From an uncultured Spirochaetota bacterium (GTDB taxonomy: Bacteria > Spirochaetota > UBA4802 > UBA5550), in the NCBI GenBank assembly GCA_937872225.1, contig CALMRZ010000080.1, positions 1 to 41,638 of the forward strand: 41,638 nucleotides of DNA, in the 5' to 3' direction. Below the pieces are notes generated by a model. It did no database searches. It was not told the origin of the DNA and was given only the letters and a program-made list of their open reading frames with translations. The position numbers and the translations under genes are program-made. This document shows, one piece after another, positions 127 through 32,508 of the stretch; position 1 is the stretch's first letter; the number at the start of each line of letters is the position of its first letter.

Positions 127-160
127 AAAAAGCGACGATCATGACCGTCGCTTTTTTTTA
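127..160. terminator. Bidirectional Rho-independent terminator
   Basis: AGCGACG (131-137) pairs with CGTCGCT (146-152). The stem is flanked by an A-run on the left and a T-run on the right, so it can stop transcription from both sides. It sits between the convergent ends of the fragment at 1-126 and the VWA gene ending at 158. Confidence 0.85.
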
Positions 161-1867
161 TATGGCGTTTTCGTCCAGGCCGGTCCGGTCGCGCTCTTCT
201 TCCTCGGCGCGCTTTCTCTTCTCCGCACGGGTGGCCTCCCGGCCTGCCTTTGATAATTTCTTCTTCAAAAATTCCCACAGCTTTACGAGGAGCAAGGTCA
301 GGAGCTGGCCGCGGCTTCCCTTGCCTGTTTCCGAAGTGAATATGAGCTGGGCTTTCTTCATCTCGGCGATGCTGAGCTTGCGGTCGTCCAACTTCATCTG
401 CTTCAGCATCTGCTTGGCCTGTGCCTTGGCCAGCTTCATCGTCTCCTTGTCGTCGGTCAGTTCCTTGCGTTCGACGAACATAAAGACCATGTCCGGGTTC
501 TTGAGCATGCGGCGCTTAAGGCGCACGAGGGTCTCCAGCGCTTCCTGGAGAACGGGGTTCTCTGCGTTCCCGTTTTCCATGAGCATCTGTATGTACTGGT
601 AGAAGAACTGTATCTGCCTGAAGAGCTTTTTCTTGTCGAGGAGCGTCAGCTCACTGATGTCGATGATGGAAAAGCGATCGAGGGAGAACCGGATGAACTC
701 CAGCTGCTCCGGCCCCACGTTGTAGAGGAGGTCGGTATCGAGGTCGCCTATCTGAATGTACTTGTTGGCCACTTCCTTGAGGTCGTTGAACATCTTGTCC
801 GACGAGTCCATGATGCGCCGGAAGGCCGTCTTCTCGGCATAGGTGAGGCCGGCGTCGTTGCCGGTGGCCTTGTACTCGTCCATTTTCTTCTTGATGGTGC
901 GGATGTCCATCGTGTCGCCGTAGACCTGGACGTTCTGGCTCTTCAGGTGGCCCTCCATCTCCATCAGGTCGGGCTTGGCGATGTCGTCGCCGATCTTCAG
1001 CACGTTGAGCTTGATGTCTCCCAGCTTGATGCGGAGCTCGTGCTTCTCGATCTTGCTGATGCCGTCGGTCACCACCAGGATCTCGGATTTCGCCATCTCC
1101 TTGTCAAAGTTGATGTCGCTGATGGCCTGCAGGATCGCATCGTGGATATTGGTGCTGCGGCCGCCGGTGGTGGTGTAGAGGATCTCCTCGATGAGGCGCG
1201 GAAAATCCTGCTGCTTCTCTACCTTTATGAGGTTGCCGGCCTTTGAATCGAATGGACGGTAGAATATCTTGGCGCGGGTGTTGTATTTCCTTCTCAGGAA
1301 CTCGGCGATGATGCACTTGGAATAGAAGGTACGCATCTTCGCTTCCATCGACTTCGATCGGTCCAGGAGTATGAAAAACTTCTGCTCGTACCGGTTCGCC
1401 TCCTTTCCCTTCTTGTCGCGGGAGGTCGACACGGGCTTGAACCGGTCGGCCTCGGTTTCGTAGTGCCGCTGCACCAGCAGCGTCTTGGTGTAGAGCTTTA
1501 TGTTGAAGACTTCCTCTTCCTGGGCCAGCTCCCGGGGGAGGGCCTTCTTCATGTCGATGATGGTGCGGTACCGGTCGATCTCCATCCGGTCCGAGAGGGG
1601 GGAAATCTTTTCCAGGCGGTTGACCTGGATGCTCTCCTTCCGATCGGGCTTGTACTCGCGGTCCTCGCGGGATATTTCCTCTATGGCGCTGAAGGCGTCG
1701 TCCAGGCGCTCATCGGAAAATATGACGCGCGCTATTTCGAAGAGCGCGAAAAACTGCGGGGGAAGGATCGTGCGGGAAAACTCGAAAAAGCCGAGGGAGT
1801 CCCAGTACTCGAAGAAATCGACGTCCTCGGCATCCGCCCGTCTGTGTTGCGCCGTATCGACAGTCAC
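158..1867 (-). CDS. VWA-domain protein, ViaA/CoxE-like partner of the adjacent AAA+ ATPase
   Basis: 569 aa. The central part holds a von Willebrand factor A domain: a hydrophobic strand then D169-R-S171-K-S173 gives the DxSxS metal site (MIDAS), with a further conserved Thr in TTTGGRS (about 232-238) and Asp268 in VVTDGIS. The N-terminal ~150 and C-terminal ~250 residues are mostly helical and charged. No signal peptide or membrane segment is seen, so it is probably cytoplasmic. Translation starts at a GTG, 12 bases after the stop of the ATPase gene. In known MoxR/RavA systems a VWA protein works with the ATPase as an adaptor for protein maturation or assembly; the target here is not visible. 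Last gene of a four-gene unit ending in a strong terminator. Confidence 0.85.
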   Translation of the reverse strand: MTVDTAQHRRADAEDVDFFEYWDSLGFFEFSRTILPPQFFALFEIARVIFSDERLDDAFSAIEEISREDREYKPDRKESIQVNRLEKISPLSDRMEIDRYRTIIDMKKALPRELAQEEEVFNIKLYTKTLLVQRHYETEADRFKPVSTSRDKKGKEANRYEQKFFILLDRSKSMEAKMRTFYSKCIIAEFLRRKYNTRAKIFYRPFDSKAGNLIKVEKQQDFPRLIEEILYTTTGGRSTNIHDAILQAISDINFDKEMAKSEILVVTDGISKIEKHELRIKLGDIKLNVLKIGDDIAKPDLMEMEGHLKSQNVQVYGDTMDIRTIKKKMDEYKATGNDAGLTYAEKTAFRRIMDSSDKMFNDLKEVANKYIQIGDLDTDLLYNVGPEQLEFIRFSLDRFSIIDISELTLLDKKKLFRQIQFFYQYIQMLMENGNAENPVLQEALETLVRLKRRMLKNPDMVFMFVERKELTDDKETMKLAKAQAKQMLKQMKLDDRKLSIAEMKKAQLIFTSETGKGSRGQLLTLLLVKLWEFLKKKLSKAGREATRAEKRKRAEEEERDRTGLDENAI

Positions 1868-1879
1868 GGCCGGCCTCGC

Positions 1880-3373
1880 TTAATAGAGATCACGGTAGTC
1901 CTGCATGATGCCGTTCTTCAGCTCCTGGACCTCCTCCACCGCGGGCGTGAGGTCGAGGATGTTCTTCTTGAGCGACTCGATGGTGAGCTTCTGCTCGTCC
2001 TCGACCCTGCGGGTGGGGAATATCTTCCTCAGGAAATCCATGAGGCTCTGCAGCACGCTCTTGCGGGCGAGGATGGCGTCCCGGCGCTCGGGGTTCTGCC
2101 GTATCTCCTGGAAGACCTGGCGGATGCCCAGGAGCAGCTCGATCTGCTGGAACGCGCCGGTCGCCCGGTAGTGCGCCATGGTCTGGTTGTACACGTCGAG
2201 ATAGAGGTCGACCTCGGACTTGTCCTTGGCCTTCACGGAGATGTAGCTGTTCAGCGTCGTGAGGCAGTGGTACATTTCCTTGAGGTCGTCGGTGTTGACC
2301 TGGAAGCGGTTGTTGAGCAGGGCCGACGCCCGGAGGAAGTCGCCCTGCTTGGCGATCTTACGCGGCGACAGGAAGTAGTTGTAGTCGCTCTTCCGCATCT
2401 CGCTCATGAACTTGTCGATGAGTACGTTCTTCATGAAGTAGATGAAGTCCGGCGTCTCGATCCTGATGGTACGGTTCTTGTTCTTGATGATCTCGTAGAG
2501 GTAAAGGATCTGGTTGAAGTATATCTTCTGCTCCGGCTCGACGGGCTTGCCGCCGCTCATCGAGTAGGTGTGGTCGATGAGGAGCTGGTGGTACACGTTG
2601 GTGTTTTCCGGGATGATGGCCTTGTAGGTGAAACGGTCGAGGACCGCCTCCGTGACCTCGTTCATGCGCATGTAGTTCGCCGTCGCGATGGCCGTGTGCA
2701 CCGCGGTGTCGATCTGCTCGGAACCGTTTATGAATTTCCGCTCGTTCAATACCGTGAGCAGTGACCGGAGCACCACGTCGCTGGCGTCGAAGAACTCGTC
2801 CAGGAACACCAGGTTCGCCTCGATGATGGAGCCCATGATGTTGTGGCGGATGCGTCCCTTCTTGAATTCCTCGATGTTGTACGGGCCGAAGTAGTTGTCC
2901 GGCGTCTGGTCCTTGCTGGCCTGGGACGAGAAGATGCGTGCCCCCTCGAAGGTATTGAAGATGTACTGGGCAAGGTACGATTTGGCCATGCCGGTCCGGG
3001 AGAGGAGCAGCATGTGCTCGCCCGTGAGTATGGCGAATATGGCCTGCCGGATGATCTCGGACCGACCGATGACGTTCTCGCTGATGCGGTTCATGTGCCA
3101 GTTCAGGTTGCCCACGATGGTGGGGATGTCGAACTCGTCCGATTTGATGGAGGCGAGCTCGCTTTTCTGGTCGGGAACCTTCTCGGTTGGGACCCCGGGA
3201 GCGGCTGATCGGTCACGGTCGCTTTTCTTCTTGAGGAAGTTCAGGTAGTCCTTGGCGCGGTCCGATTCCTGGAGGCTGATCTGCTCCAGGGATTTCTCGG
3301 GGAGTACGGGCTTGTTGATGACGCCGTAGCCGTCTTCTTCCAAGATTTTATGTATATCTTTTTGCTTGTCCAT
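1880..3373 (-). CDS. MoxR/RavA-type AAA+ ATPase
   Basis: 497 aa, almost the length of E. coli RavA. Residues ~1-90 are a charged, low-complexity extension. The AAA+ core has a Walker A of the form SRTGMAKS (125-132; the usual first Gly is Ser), Walker B LVFLDE (188-193), a sensor-1-like Asn in ATANYM (233) and an arginine-finger region LDRF (247). The stretch NYFGPYNIEEF followed by LTVLNERKFINGSE closely follows the RavA pattern (FGP...LTAINERQFRNG). The C-terminal part is helical. Such ATPases use ATP to remodel protein complexes together with a VWA partner, which is the next gene (12-base gap). An AAGGTG ribosome site precedes the ATG. The upstream His-less kinase ends 11 bases before it, suggesting co-translation. 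Confidence 0.88.
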   Translation of the reverse strand: MDKQKDIHKILEEDGYGVINKPVLPEKSLEQISLQESDRAKDYLNFLKKKSDRDRSAAPGVPTEKVPDQKSELASIKSDEFDIPTIVGNLNWHMNRISENVIGRSEIIRQAIFAILTGEHMLLLSRTGMAKSYLAQYIFNTFEGARIFSSQASKDQTPDNYFGPYNIEEFKKGRIRHNIMGSIIEANLVFLDEFFDASDVVLRSLLTVLNERKFINGSEQIDTAVHTAIATANYMRMNEVTEAVLDRFTYKAIIPENTNVYHQLLIDHTYSMSGGKPVEPEQKIYFNQILYLYEIIKNKNRTIRIETPDFIYFMKNVLIDKFMSEMRKSDYNYFLSPRKIAKQGDFLRASALLNNRFQVNTDDLKEMYHCLTTLNSYISVKAKDKSEVDLYLDVYNQTMAHYRATGAFQQIELLLGIRQVFQEIRQNPERRDAILARKSVLQSLMDFLRKIFPTRRVEDEQKLTIESLKKNILDLTPAVEEVQELKNGIMQDYRDLY

Positions 3374-3384
3374 GCCGGCACCTT

Positions 3385-5010
3385 TCAGGATAATTTTTCC
3401 ACCAGTGGCAGGATGATCCGGAACGAAGTCCCCTGGCCCGGGGCGCTTTTAAGGCCGATGGTGCCCCCCAGGTTCTGGACTATCGCGGACGTAATCATGA
3501 GACCCAGCCCCGTTGCCTGCTTGCCCTTGGTCGTGAAGAACGGCTGGAATATCTTCTGGAGATTTTCTTCCGGGATACCGATGCCGGTGTCGGTTATCGT
3601 CAGTATGGCGAATTTGCCGTCGGCGGCCTGCACGGTATCAACCGTTATGGTGATCGAGCCCTTTTCGGGCATCGCTTCTTCCGCGTTTTCTATGAACTGA
3701 ATAAGGAGCTGCTGGAGCTGGTTCTGGTTCGCCCTGATCAGGGCGGCCTTCGGGGCCGGTTCGACGGTGACGTCGAAGCCCTCGCTCCGGAGCCGTTTCA
3801 GCATCATGTCCACCTGGTGGCTGGAAAGGACCTTGTTCAGGTCGCAGATGTCCTTGTCCTCCTCGTCGGCCGTGGAAAGGCTCACCAGCTGCTCCGTGAT
3901 ATTTTTTATCCTTCCCACCTCGTGATGCAGGGAATCGATGTATCCCGCAACCGGGCTTCCGTCGTCCAGGTTATTGTCCACGAAGTTCAGGTCCATGACC
4001 ATCTTGTTGATGCAGGCCTTCAGCTCCGAGGCGACGCCGGACGCGAGTATGCCCAGGGCGGAGAGCTTTTCCGCTTCGTACACGCGGTTGGTGATGATCG
4101 ACTGTTCGGTATGGTCCTCCACCATGAAGATGATGCGCTCGACATTGTTGCTTGAATCCATGACCGGGACCACGGTGGCGTTGATGATGAGGTCGCGGCC
4201 GCTGGTAATGGCGCGGTAGGGGATATTGAAGGCCTGGCCGGTCTTTTTGTCCAGCCGGCAGCTTTCGTATAGTTTGCCGAATTCACTCTCGGTGAAAACA
4301 GGCTCGTTAAGAATGTTGACCCCCACCAGGGTGTCTCCCGGGCCGTGGCCCATGATCTGCTTCAGTGCCGGGTTCTCCGACAGGACGATGCCTGACGGGT
4401 CCATGACGAAGATGCCGATGGGAGCGTGCTTGATGACGTCCTCATTGAAATCGCGCAGGTTTTTCAGTTCCTGCTGCTGCTTCAACTGCTCCTTGACCTT
4501 GATCTCGAGGATGCGGCTGTATTCCTTCGCTTTCTTCTCGGCCAGGTGCTTTTCGGTGATGTTCTTCATGATGCCGACGAGGCCGATGATCTCGCCCGTG
4601 TCGGCCTTGATTGGGGAAAGGCTGGCGGTAAGGTATACCTTGTTGCCTTTCTGGTTGTACGTCTTGATCATCTCGTTTTCGAAGGTTTTCCCCTTGTTGA
4701 CGATTTCATCGAAGACGAAGGCGGCGCGCTCATGCTCGATGGAGGGTATGCTCTTGGAATAATGTCCGCTGATCGGTTTTTCCGCCGATGGATTAAAGAA
4801 GTCCCGCCATGATGAATTAATGTAGATGAGGTTGCCTTCCTTATCGAGAACAAAAATAAGGTCTGATGAGGCCTCAACCAGGGAATGGTAATCAATGGGG
4901 ACTTTCTGGCTTTCAGCGCCGCCGGTGCCGACCTGGCTTTTCTGCCGGAGATCGGTTATTATCTGAATCAGCTCTTCTCTGGAACAATTGTTCAGGTTCT
5001 TTTCATCCAT
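3385..5010 (-). CDS. PAS-PAS histidine-kinase-like protein lacking the phospho-accepting histidine
   Basis: 541 aa, no membrane segment. Order: PAS 1 (~40-155), a Lys/Gln-rich coiled coil (~155-190), PAS 2 (~190-305), a DHp-like helix pair (~312-375) and a HATPase_c domain (~405-538). The ATP-binding domain looks intact: N-box Asn442, G1 box DTGIGIP (Asp474), F box FQPFF, G2 GLGLM. The H-box, normally EKLSALGxLAxGVAHE, reads with Ser328 (codon TCG at 4027-4029) in place of His, and the usual NPL is also lost (KACIN). Two His (362, 363) occur in the second helix but not at the classical place. It may bind ATP and signal by conformation, or act as a dimer partner. It lies 20 bases after a 4-TM protein gene and 11 before the RavA-type ATPase. 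Confidence 0.88.
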   Translation of the reverse strand: MDEKNLNNCSREELIQIITDLRQKSQVGTGGAESQKVPIDYHSLVEASSDLIFVLDKEGNLIYINSSWRDFFNPSAEKPISGHYSKSIPSIEHERAAFVFDEIVNKGKTFENEMIKTYNQKGNKVYLTASLSPIKADTGEIIGLVGIMKNITEKHLAEKKAKEYSRILEIKVKEQLKQQQELKNLRDFNEDVIKHAPIGIFVMDPSGIVLSENPALKQIMGHGPGDTLVGVNILNEPVFTESEFGKLYESCRLDKKTGQAFNIPYRAITSGRDLIINATVVPVMDSSNNVERIIFMVEDHTEQSIITNRVYEAEKLSALGILASGVASELKACINKMVMDLNFVDNNLDDGSPVAGYIDSLHHEVGRIKNITEQLVSLSTADEEDKDICDLNKVLSSHQVDMMLKRLRSEGFDVTVEPAPKAALIRANQNQLQQLLIQFIENAEEAMPEKGSITITVDTVQAADGKFAILTITDTGIGIPEENLQKIFQPFFTTKGKQATGLGLMITSAIVQNLGGTIGLKSAPGQGTSFRIILPLVEKLS

Positions 5011-5030: not shown

Positions 5031-5462
5031 CTATTGTTTTGTCCCGGCGACGGCGTTTGCTTCGGCTTTCAATTTTCTCTGGAGCCGGTTGGCTGATATC
5101 AGGAACCATACTTCCACGAAGAGGCTGAGGATGGTGCCGAGGAGAAAGGATCCGCCGAAGAATATCTGGTTCATGTCCAATAGAAACAGGCCGCCCAGGG
5201 CTATAATGGCAAGCAAAACGATCTTGATCGGAAACGAGGCAAGGGTCACGGTGAACATGACCATGATGTTTGAAGTAATGGCTTTTCGCGCTATGAATAT
5301 CCACACGACGGAGAAAAACATGCTCAGCATCGTCCCGAGGAAATAGCCTTTGAATTCAGGAATACTCCTGTTGGAAAAGCAATACACGGTAATGGCGACA
5401 TTGAGTATGATGGGCAGACAGATCAGGATGACCGATTTAATGAATAGCTTTTTCATGAACAC
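5031..5462 (-). CDS. Small four-helix membrane protein, unknown function
   Basis: 143 aa with about four hydrophobic segments (~7-28, ~40-58, ~66-95, ~100-120) and a short basic cytoplasmic tail (NRLQRKLKAE). The size and spacing of the segments recall AtpI-like small membrane proteins, but there is no clear signature and no ATP synthase gene nearby, so that is only a resemblance. It is the first gene of the unit with the His-less kinase, RavA-type ATPase and VWA protein, and may supply the membrane anchor or input for that system (inference). The start used is the first ATG; a second Met two codons on (MKKLF) is equally possible. Confidence 0.7.
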   Translation of the reverse strand: MFMKKLFIKSVILICLPIILNVAITVYCFSNRSIPEFKGYFLGTMLSMFFSVVWIFIARKAITSNIMVMFTVTLASFPIKIVLLAIIALGGLFLLDMNQIFFGGSFLLGTILSLFVEVWFLISANRLQRKLKAEANAVAGTKQ

Positions 5463-5531: not shown

Positions 5532-5567
5532 GGGAGGAAGATGTTCGTTTTTGAACAACTTCCTCCC
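5532..5567. terminator. Long stem-loop downstream of adk
   Basis: GGGAGGAAG-A-TGTTC pairs with GAACA-A-CTTCCTCCC around a GTTTTT loop, with a single A/A mismatch. There is no T-run on the minus strand after it, so it is not a classical intrinsic terminator. It may stabilise the adk 3' end or separate adk from the downstream four-gene unit. Confidence 0.5.
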
Positions 5568-5670: not shown

Positions 5671-6363
5671 CTATCCGAGTTTTTTCATCAGCTCTTCGCT
5701 GACTTCTTTGACTCCCGGTTTGCCGTCCAGTTCTATAATGCGGGGTACGCCGTTGTTTGCCTTGGAGAGCCTTTTGAAATACTCCACCGCGGCCAGGGTC
5801 CCGTTGTTCTTATTATAGTAAATGTCATGGCGCTTGCCGATAGCCGCTTCGTCCTGGTCATCGGAACGGGCGGAAAGGGAGCCGCCGCATACGCGGCATA
5901 CAATGGTGCCGTCTTTTTCGGCCGGTTTGATGGCGTCGATGAAAATATTGTTGGGGTGGTTGTTGTCGGTGGCGCAGAGCCTGCGTCCCATGATGCGGTT
6001 CTTGGCAATTTCACGATCAAGGATTATTTCTATGACGACGTCGAGTTTCAGGCCGGCTTTCTTTAACGCTTCGTCGAGGGCCTTGGCCTGCTCATCGTTG
6101 CGGGGGAACCCGTCTAGGAGCCAGCCTTTCTTGCAGTCGTCTTTCTGAAGCCGGTCCAGGATCATGGGGATGGTGATATCATCGGGAACCAAGTCGCCCT
6201 TGTCGATATATGCTTTGGCTTTTTTACCAAGCTCGGTGCCGCCTTTTATGTTTTCCCTGAAAATCACACCGGATTCAATATGTGTTACACTATACTTTTT
6301 TTGAACTATGGCGCCCTGCGTGCCTTTGCCGCTTCCATTGGGCCCGAAGATAAGAATATTCAT
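5671..6363 (-). CDS. adk: Adenylate kinase with a Desulfovibrio-type metal-binding lid
   Basis: 230 aa. Catalyses ATP + AMP = 2 ADP in the cytoplasm. P-loop GPNGSGKGTQ lies at residues 7-16; the AMP-site motif DGFPRN and the RSDDQDE region are present. The lid carries C130-x5-H136-x19-C156-x2-C159 rather than the usual four-Cys zinc lid. This matches the unusual Cys-x5-His-xn-Cys-x2-Cys motif known from the Desulfovibrio gigas enzyme, which binds Zn, Co or Fe. A good ribosome site (GGAGAGG) sits just before the ATG. Transcribed alone or leading into the downstream unit; a stem-loop separates them. Confidence 0.95.
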   Translation of the reverse strand: MNILIFGPNGSGKGTQGAIVQKKYSVTHIESGVIFRENIKGGTELGKKAKAYIDKGDLVPDDITIPMILDRLQKDDCKKGWLLDGFPRNDEQAKALDEALKKAGLKLDVVIEIILDREIAKNRIMGRRLCATDNNHPNNIFIDAIKPAEKDGTIVCRVCGGSLSARSDDQDEAAIGKRHDIYYNKNNGTLAAVEYFKRLSKANNGVPRIIELDGKPGVKEVSEELMKKLG

Positions 6364-31422: not shown

Positions 31423-31836
31423 ATGACGAAACCATATACTGTTGAGAATCCTATAGAATACGCGCGCGAGGTTGTCGGACGCGACCCCTTTGCCACCTTT
31501 CTCGGCATTGAGGTCGAGGAAGTGCGGGAGGGATACGGCCGCGTGGGCGTCACGGTGAAGCCGGAATTCATGAACGCGGTCGAACGGGCCCACGGCGGGT
31601 TCATCCACGCCCTGGCGGACCAGGCCTTTGCCGTGGCATGCAACAGCACCGGCGTCATGGCCATAGCGGTGAACTTCAATATCAACTATCTTTCCTCCGC
31701 CGTGGACGGGGAGAAAATTTTCGCCGAGGCGACGCCGGTGAACGTGGGGCGCAAGGTCTCGGTCTGGAGCATCCAGGTGCGCGGCGCCGGGGACAAGCTG
31801 ATCGCCACCGGTACCGGGACCGCCTACCATAAGTAG
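31423..31836 (+). CDS. Hotdog-fold thioesterase, PaaI-like
   Basis: 137 aa from the ATG at 31423, preceded by AAGGAA at six bases. PaaI-type hotdog enzyme: NAVERAHGGFIHALADQAFAVACNS carries the conserved Asn, HGG and catalytic Asp; AIAVNFNINYLSSAVDG and a C-terminal strand ATGTGTAY complete the fold. Family members hydrolyse acyl-CoA thioesters (often phenylacetyl- or medium-chain) in the cytoplasm. No CoA-pathway genes are adjacent, so the substrate is unknown. Probably a single gene. Confidence 0.9.
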   Translation: MTKPYTVENPIEYAREVVGRDPFATFLGIEVEEVREGYGRVGVTVKPEFMNAVERAHGGFIHALADQAFAVACNSTGVMAIAVNFNINYLSSAVDGEKIFAEATPVNVGRKVSVWSIQVRGAGDKLIATGTGTAYHK

Positions 31837-32121
31837 ATGCCAGGTCTTGTTATGACCGCCCCGAACCCCGATGGGCGCGTGGAAAAATATAGGTGCTGGG
31901 TGGTCGGGAGTCCCGACGGGAACCGGGACGGCATCGCCTCTCTCCTTGTGATGACCGTTATGTCTTTCGCGCCCCCTTCGGGAGTCAGGGGGGACGTGAG
32001 TGAGGAATTTCTTGAATTCTAAAATGCACTTATAAGATATGGTTTCTGCATAATTAAGTGTTGACAATGGCCTTCCGGGTCGGATTATACTGGCGCGAAA
32101 CTGAATCTTGTGGAGAATAAC
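31837..32121. other. Intergenic region with hairpin repeat and promoter
   Basis: No gene. A hairpin copy (C-run 31972-31976, G-runs 31980-31982 and 31988-31993) and GGGAGTCCCGACGGGA-type inverted pieces near 31910 lie before an AT-rich stretch and the promoter at 32061-32091. Confidence 0.5.
32061..32091 (+). promoter_or_regulatory. Sigma70-like promoter of the lipoprotein-dapA-dapB run
   Basis: TTGACA (32061-32066) and TATACT (32086-32091), 19-base spacer (18 if TTATAC is used). Start codon of the lipoprotein gene is about 30 bases downstream. Confidence 0.65.
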
Positions 32122-32508
32122 GTGCTGAAACGATTGATTGTACCAGTCATTGCGGGCCTGTTCTTTTTCTCGTCGTGCGACGGTTTTATTGACGGTAAAA
32201 GCGTGGACGCACTGAAGGACTATGAAAAGAAATACTATGTTTTAAAGAAGGACATAGAGGTTGAAGGTAAAAAGCTGAAGAAAGGCGAGGAGGTGAAGAT
32301 CGTGGTCACCGCCGGCAAGGAATGGATCAAGGTTCATGCCTATCCGGCGCGGGCGAACGAGCTTAAGGCGGACCACATCCTGGTGCTTTATATCTTTGAC
32401 GATGATTTCGAGAAAAAGAAATTCAACGTGAATTTCTTCAATGAACAGCTGAACGCGGTGGCCGCCGTCCGGGGCGAAGCCACGGTGTTTGACAAGAAGA
32501 AAAAATAA
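32122..32508 (+). CDS. Small lipoprotein, unknown
   Basis: 128 aa from the GTG at 32122, which follows GGAG by six bases; an in-frame GTG at 32110 is less likely. The signal peptide ends in FFFSSC, a lipobox-like site, so it is probably a lipoprotein. The mature part is rich in Lys, Asp and Glu (YEKKYYVLKKDIEVEGKKLKKGEEVKI) with alternating strands, a small beta-type fold perhaps SH3-like. No family recognised. Followed by dapA six bases on, so it is co-transcribed with lysine/cell-wall precursor genes; a functional link is not evident. Confidence 0.8.
   Translation: MLKRLIVPVIAGLFFFSSCDGFIDGKSVDALKDYEKKYYVLKKDIEVEGKKLKKGEEVKIVVTAGKEWIKVHAYPARANELKADHILVLYIFDDDFEKKKFNVNFFNEQLNAVAAVRGEATVFDKKKK

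Follow-up and report, generated by a model that had tools for sequence, protein, structure and literature searches.

The stretch of DNA analysed here (the window) is a contig of 41,638 nucleotides from the genome of an uncultured member of the Spirochaetota, whose relatives include Spirochaetes bacterium RBG_13_51_14 and RBG_16_49_21. Its minus strand carries a run of four closely packed genes in the order TM4, kinase, AAA+ and VWA, and an inverted repeat lies between the first of these and the adenylate kinase gene (adk):

5031 to 5462, minus strand: TM4, which opens the operon; small membrane protein with several TM segments and a weak likeness to AtpI, the ATP synthase I chain
3385 to 5010, minus strand: sensor kinase of 541 amino acids lacking the H-box histidine, with PAS and HATPase_c domains in Pfam, an AlphaFold model and 35 orthologues
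1880 to 3373, minus strand: MoxR-type AAA+ ATPase, with bpMoxR/AAA_5 and AAA_lid_8 domains in Pfam
158 to 1867, minus strand: VWA-domain protein (VWA_2/VWA_CoxE) with an intact MIDAS
5532 to 5567, strand not assigned: 15-nt inverted repeat in the adk/TM4 intergenic region

The likeness of TM4 to AtpI lies below the Pfam cut-off (PF03899, E 4e-4, 21.1 bits against 25.1). A preliminary description of this DNA had placed the kinase 20 bases after the membrane protein gene and 11 bases before the AAA+ gene, and both distances are correct, with the TM gene ending at 5031 and the AAA+ start codon (ATG) at 3373. The adk gene (window 5671-6363) is directly upstream of the operon, an arrangement shared by roughly two loci in three. 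No T-tract terminator was scored at the inverted repeat, which probably insulates the operon from the adk transcript.

Comparison of the gene order around orthologues showed the same TM4-kinase-AAA+-VWA arrangement on one strand in 31 loci from six families, wherever the contig extends far enough, with median gaps of 20 nt between TM4 and the kinase and of 16 and 12 nt downstream. TM4 is at its place in 29 of the 31 loci and is missing or unrecognised in two. At L040:4592-5704, the usual TM4 place upstream of the kinase, there is a PAS-PAS protein with no kinase domain and a Cys-containing end (VCPECLKKYFPDIG). Among 46 genomes of the order, 35 have both the kinase and the AAA+ gene, 10 have neither, one has the AAA+ gene only and none has the kinase only (Fisher p 3e-9, a value not corrected for shared ancestry). 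Profiles of the AAA+ protein (E<=1e-30) and of the VWA protein (E<=1e-6) matched 36 and 37 of 296 genomes of the phylum, respectively, every one of them in the order to which the window belongs; outside the phylum, 33 genomes yielded nothing beyond weak matches to the MoxR core. The single genome with AAA+ only, G008, has an adk-TM4-AAA+-VWA locus from which the kinase is cleanly gone between TM4 and AAA+, which indicates that the AAA+/VWA pair is able to persist without it. The TM4, AAA+ and VWA proteins of this operon (L161:1591-5060) are unusually divergent. The kinase is thus tightly linked to the AAA+/VWA pair, although operon linkage alone is no proof of contact.

The kinase consists of an N-terminal helix, a first PAS domain (PAS1, residues 40-150), a signalling helix (152-195), a second PAS domain (PAS2, 196-299), a DHp region (301-376) and a GHKL/CA domain (387-536). 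Pfam matches to PAS and HATPase_c bear out the two PAS domains and the ATP-binding domain that had been proposed from the sequence. Of 25 orthologues, 10 are matched by the HisKA model (PF00512; best E 1.8e-7), which leaves the window protein itself unmatched, and the DHp helices are visible in the AlphaFold model of that protein (mean pLDDT 79.6, pTM 0.42), which contains PAS1, the long helix, PAS2, a DHp hairpin and the GHKL domain. Taken alone, the DHp-CA part resembles ZraS, CckA and DivL (Z 20-22). The ancestor of the protein is a HisKA-type sensor kinase of the AtoS/ZraS/NtrB-like kind. Three of its positions are central to what follows:

4027 to 4029, minus strand: TCG codon of Ser328, at the phospho-acceptor position of the H-box; His in 0 of 35 orthologues
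3697 to 3699, minus strand: Gln438, at the first position of the N-box, where 42 of 46 paralogues of the same genome have Asn
3685 to 3687, minus strand: Asn442, the Mg-coordinating Asn of the N-box; invariant in 35 of 35 orthologues

The preliminary description had reported Ser328 in place of the H-box histidine, and the TCG codon is there as described, the H-box reading GVA-S-ELKACIN where a paralogue, for example, has GIA-H-EINNPLT. Orthologues were collected by a profile search of the 46 genomes of the order (n=35); 34 of them are full length and none has an internal stop. None carries a histidine at this position, the residues being Tyr in 17, Ser in 14, Leu in two, Val in one and Glu in one, so the claim stands when orthologues with a normal His are looked for. 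Among the kinases of the same genome in which the H-box column could be aligned in an HMM survey (n=44), 42 have His, one has Gln and one is the window protein with its Ser. As read from these alignments, it is the absence of His, and not the presence of Ser, that is the conserved feature of the family. The adjoining Asn-Pro had also been described as lost; the Pro is indeed gone in the window, but Pro333 is still found in 21 of the 35 orthologues. Because Leu and Val are among the replacements, there would be no general substitute acceptor at the H-box, and as His362 and His363, raised earlier as residues that might be phosphorylated instead, occur in just four of the 35 orthologues, they too offer no conserved substitute. 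We therefore rejected both Ser and His362/His363 as substitute acceptors. In a tree of 31 orthologues the family forms a single clade (support 100/99), with Tyr in families f2, f4, f5 and f7 and Ser mainly in f1, and the simplest reading of this distribution is a single loss on the stem, such that the phospho-acceptor His would have disappeared at the base of the kinase family. One orthologue, at L048:5639-6727, carries Glu as its H-box replacement and lacks both PAS1 and the helix that precedes it. A second kinase without the histidine is encoded in the same genome as the window kinase (L172; G000:C2 near 31791-32132), with Gln at the H-box (ANITQELRTPLSG) and an intact N-box.

The ATP-binding domain had been described as intact, which holds for Asn442, Asp474, Gly501 and Gly503, all invariant, but not for the first N-box Asn, which is replaced in 35 of 35 orthologues (His in 18, Gln in 14, Asp in two, Glu in one, Asn in none). 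The second N-box Asn is the Mg-coordinating residue (PMC10017428). Together with D474xG476xG478, FFTTKG and TGLG, which are invariant or almost so, these residues indicate that the predicted nucleotide pocket is largely retained. The kinase is under strong purifying selection: dN/dS among close pairs is 0.008-0.09, similar to that of the neighbouring genes, and is low in the DHp as well. The H-box and the lower DHp are among the best conserved parts of the protein, their mean entropy being 0.9-1.0 bits where that of the PAS domains is 1.5-1.6. In the lower DHp and hairpin, F343, N347, P353 and Y357 are invariant and N342 is present in 34 of 35 orthologues, while the same positions are variable among paralogues. 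Conservation across 342-357 is what would be expected of a binding surface, and it does not say which partner is bound. On sequence grounds, with the His absent from all 35 orthologues, the protein is most likely a non-phosphorylating sensor, as the preliminary description had held.

That description had also named the downstream pair RavA/ViaA, a label that fits only loosely. Among named relatives, RavA comes closest to the AAA+ protein (E 1.5e-25), but the score against the NCBIfam RavA family (PRK13531) is 90 bits where the cut-off is 681, with a match that spans positions 20-326 of 498. Nor was a LARA domain recognised: past AAA_lid_8, Pfam gave no match in the window protein. Its best Pfam match is PF20030 (bpMoxR, 1.7e-31), followed by PF07728 (4e-15) and PF17868 (1.2e-7), and its Walker A, Walker B and sensor-1 residues are intact and invariant. 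With this MoxR-type core and the adjoining VWA gene, the AAA+ protein is a MoxR protein. The VWA protein gave no ViaA model among its NCBIfam matches; its likeness is at the level of VWA_2/VWA_CoxE only, and it has no relative in the PDB by sequence. Its VWA fold spans residues 157-378 (Z about 16), the model being poor beyond these residues, and ViaA is absent from the structural matches, which settles nothing. The MIDAS motif (DRSKS...T...TDG) is intact, with D169, S171, S173, T239 and D268 invariant in 21 sequences, and the protein represents an order-specific family. RavA-ViaA of E. coli is alike in that a VWA gene comes after a MoxR AAA+ gene, whereas the operon in the window adds the TM4 and pseudokinase genes, its AAA+ protein is far under the RavA cut-off and its VWA protein falls outside the ViaA models. 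The MoxR-vWA ternary conflict systems are alike in the bpMoxR match and in the placing of MoxR beside vWA, but we saw no beta-propeller or effector gene here. An anti-phage system was also considered and set aside, as PADLOC gave no match.

The AAA+ protein has a short conserved peptide near its start, which we regard as a candidate docking motif:

3320 to 3343, minus strand: LEEDGYGV, residues 11-18 of the AAA+ protein

The motif [LFY]xx[DE]G[YF]x[IV] is found near the AAA+ start in all 35 genomes with the kinase (the G is E in one) and is joined to the MoxR core by a variable linker; the difference in entropy between motif and linker is in part overstated, since the linker sequences were compared without gap alignment. 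The motif is absent from the AAA+ protein of G008, where the upstream reading frame has no room for it. This loss of kinase and peptide together is suggestive, not proof, as it is one event in a fast-evolving lineage. In G033, where the kinase is without PAS1, the AAA+ protein still carries the motif, which makes PAS1 an unlikely target for it. The kinase-less locus and the peptide together hint at the site of a possible contact.

A precedent for such a contact is NifL, which forms a direct inhibitory complex with an AAA+ protein, carries FAD in PAS1 and responds to ADP. NifL uses its GHKL/DHp region to touch the AAA+ domain of NifA and passes on no phosphate (PMC12998174), and ADP stabilises NifL on NifA (PMC9866876). 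Compared with solved structures by Foldseek, the window kinase has A. vinelandii NifL, bound to NifA, as its second match (E 9.5e-26). The TM-score of this match is about 0.28 with a large rmsd, and other PAS histidine kinase structures score similarly, so the match reflects shared domain order and not a shared pose. By family cut-off the kinase is not NifL, as it scores 98.4 bits against NCBIfam TIGR02938, under the threshold of 242.45. The two proteins are alike in their PAS-PAS-DHp-GHKL order, their derivation from a histidine kinase and their genes adjoining an AAA+ gene. They differ in their neighbours, NifA being a sigma54 activator while the AAA+ protein here is of the MoxR type with a VWA partner, and also in the H domain, where A. 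vinelandii NifL retains the conserved His (PMC9866876) that is missing from the kinase described here.

Because the kinase has in common with NifL its domain order, a retained nucleotide pocket, an AAA+ neighbour and the absence of phosphotransfer, we propose control of the NifL kind, and lean towards a pseudo-histidine kinase that would control the MoxR/VWA machine directly, gated by nucleotide and by its PAS domains, through a contact that we infer. In this mechanism the PAS domains would respond to a signal in the cytosol and the GHKL domain to ATP/ADP, and the two inputs would jointly reshape the DHp/GHKL region, so that the reshaped kinase dimer would bind or release the AAA+ protein. The N-terminal peptide LxxDGYxI of the AAA+ protein would probably help this binding, and the outcome would be an AAA+/VWA chaperone-like machine that is switched on or off without phosphotransfer. 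A more specific version, in which throughout the clade the pseudokinase docks on the N-terminal peptide of the MoxR AAA+ protein to gate MoxR/VWA in response to nucleotide and PAS signals, as an independent second invention of the NifL-NifA principle outside the sigma54 activators, is one that we advance tentatively and hold at somewhat less than even chances.

The main rival is that the protein is an accessory of the DivL/RocA kind, whose partner would be a response regulator, or a second histidine kinase, in a distant two-component system, and whose place in the operon would serve co-expression only; we consider this unlikely, while giving it real weight. We know of no link between DivL and MoxR/VWA. 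In Caulobacter DivL, as here, the H-box His is replaced family-wide, the GHKL fold is kept and a PAS sensor is present. DivL has Tyr at the H-box position throughout the alphaproteobacteria, and Ala in one, is inactive as a kinase and acts as a sensor of DivK~P (PMC4211667). The same residue stands at the H-box of the 17 Tyr-bearing orthologues, DivL is among the structural matches (4q20, Z 20.4 over 206 residues), and the lower DHp, the usual docking site of response regulators, is conserved in the kinase family. The partner of DivL, however, is a response regulator (DivK), whereas none was recognised by eye among the recurrent neighbour genes here; the replacement is Tyr in DivL, against Y/S/L/V/E in this family and Ser in the window; and the presence of the kinase tracks that of the AAA+ gene exactly, G008 excepted.

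It is less probable still that the protein autophosphorylates on Ser, Tyr or another residue, or on His398 of the DHp-CA linker, in the manner of the chloroplast sensor kinase (CSK), for which no AAA+/VWA partner is known to us. The retained nucleotide pocket, the Tyr or Ser at the H-box of 31 of the 35 orthologues and the presence of His398 in 34 of them are all in keeping with such activity, but four orthologues carry Leu, Val or Glu at the H-box, the first N-box Asn is lost throughout, and His398 lies outside the DHp helices in the AlphaFold model. CSK, in which the His is replaced by Tyr, Gln or Glu with ATP binding retained (PMC5054060), is alike in its altered H-box and its ATP site, and is itself a plastid redox regulator. 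A HisKA protein acting only as a phosphatase would dephosphorylate a response regulator through ExxT/N, the phosphatase motif of HisKA kinases, and we rejected this as very improbable: Glu329 is present in 34 of 35 orthologues, but the complete motif occurs in just six, position 332 being V in 15, N in six, A and G in three each, Y, S and M in two each, and D and E in one each. Finally, a decaying gene or an assembly or sequencing error, which has only the missing His in its favour and to which we give practically no credence, is ruled out by 35 intact ORFs without stops, low dN/dS, descent in one clade and the kept gene order.

To our knowledge, the regulation of MoxR AAA+/VWA machines is largely unknown. 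In the open-licence literature that we searched, we found no MoxR protein linked with a PAS protein or histidine kinase and no earlier report of a kinase lacking its His that is tied to a MoxR/VWA pair, so the novelty of the link, which the preliminary description had called a new type, is provisional. In a survey of MoxR-vWA systems, the vWA-associated effectors were reported to include no histidine kinase domains (PMC7159879). A dedicated sensor without the phospho-acceptor His, kept across an order, provides a concrete candidate for the regulator of a MoxR AAA+/VWA machine, and it suggests that the conversion of a histidine kinase into a direct controller of an AAA+ protein, as in NifL-NifA, may have occurred more than once.
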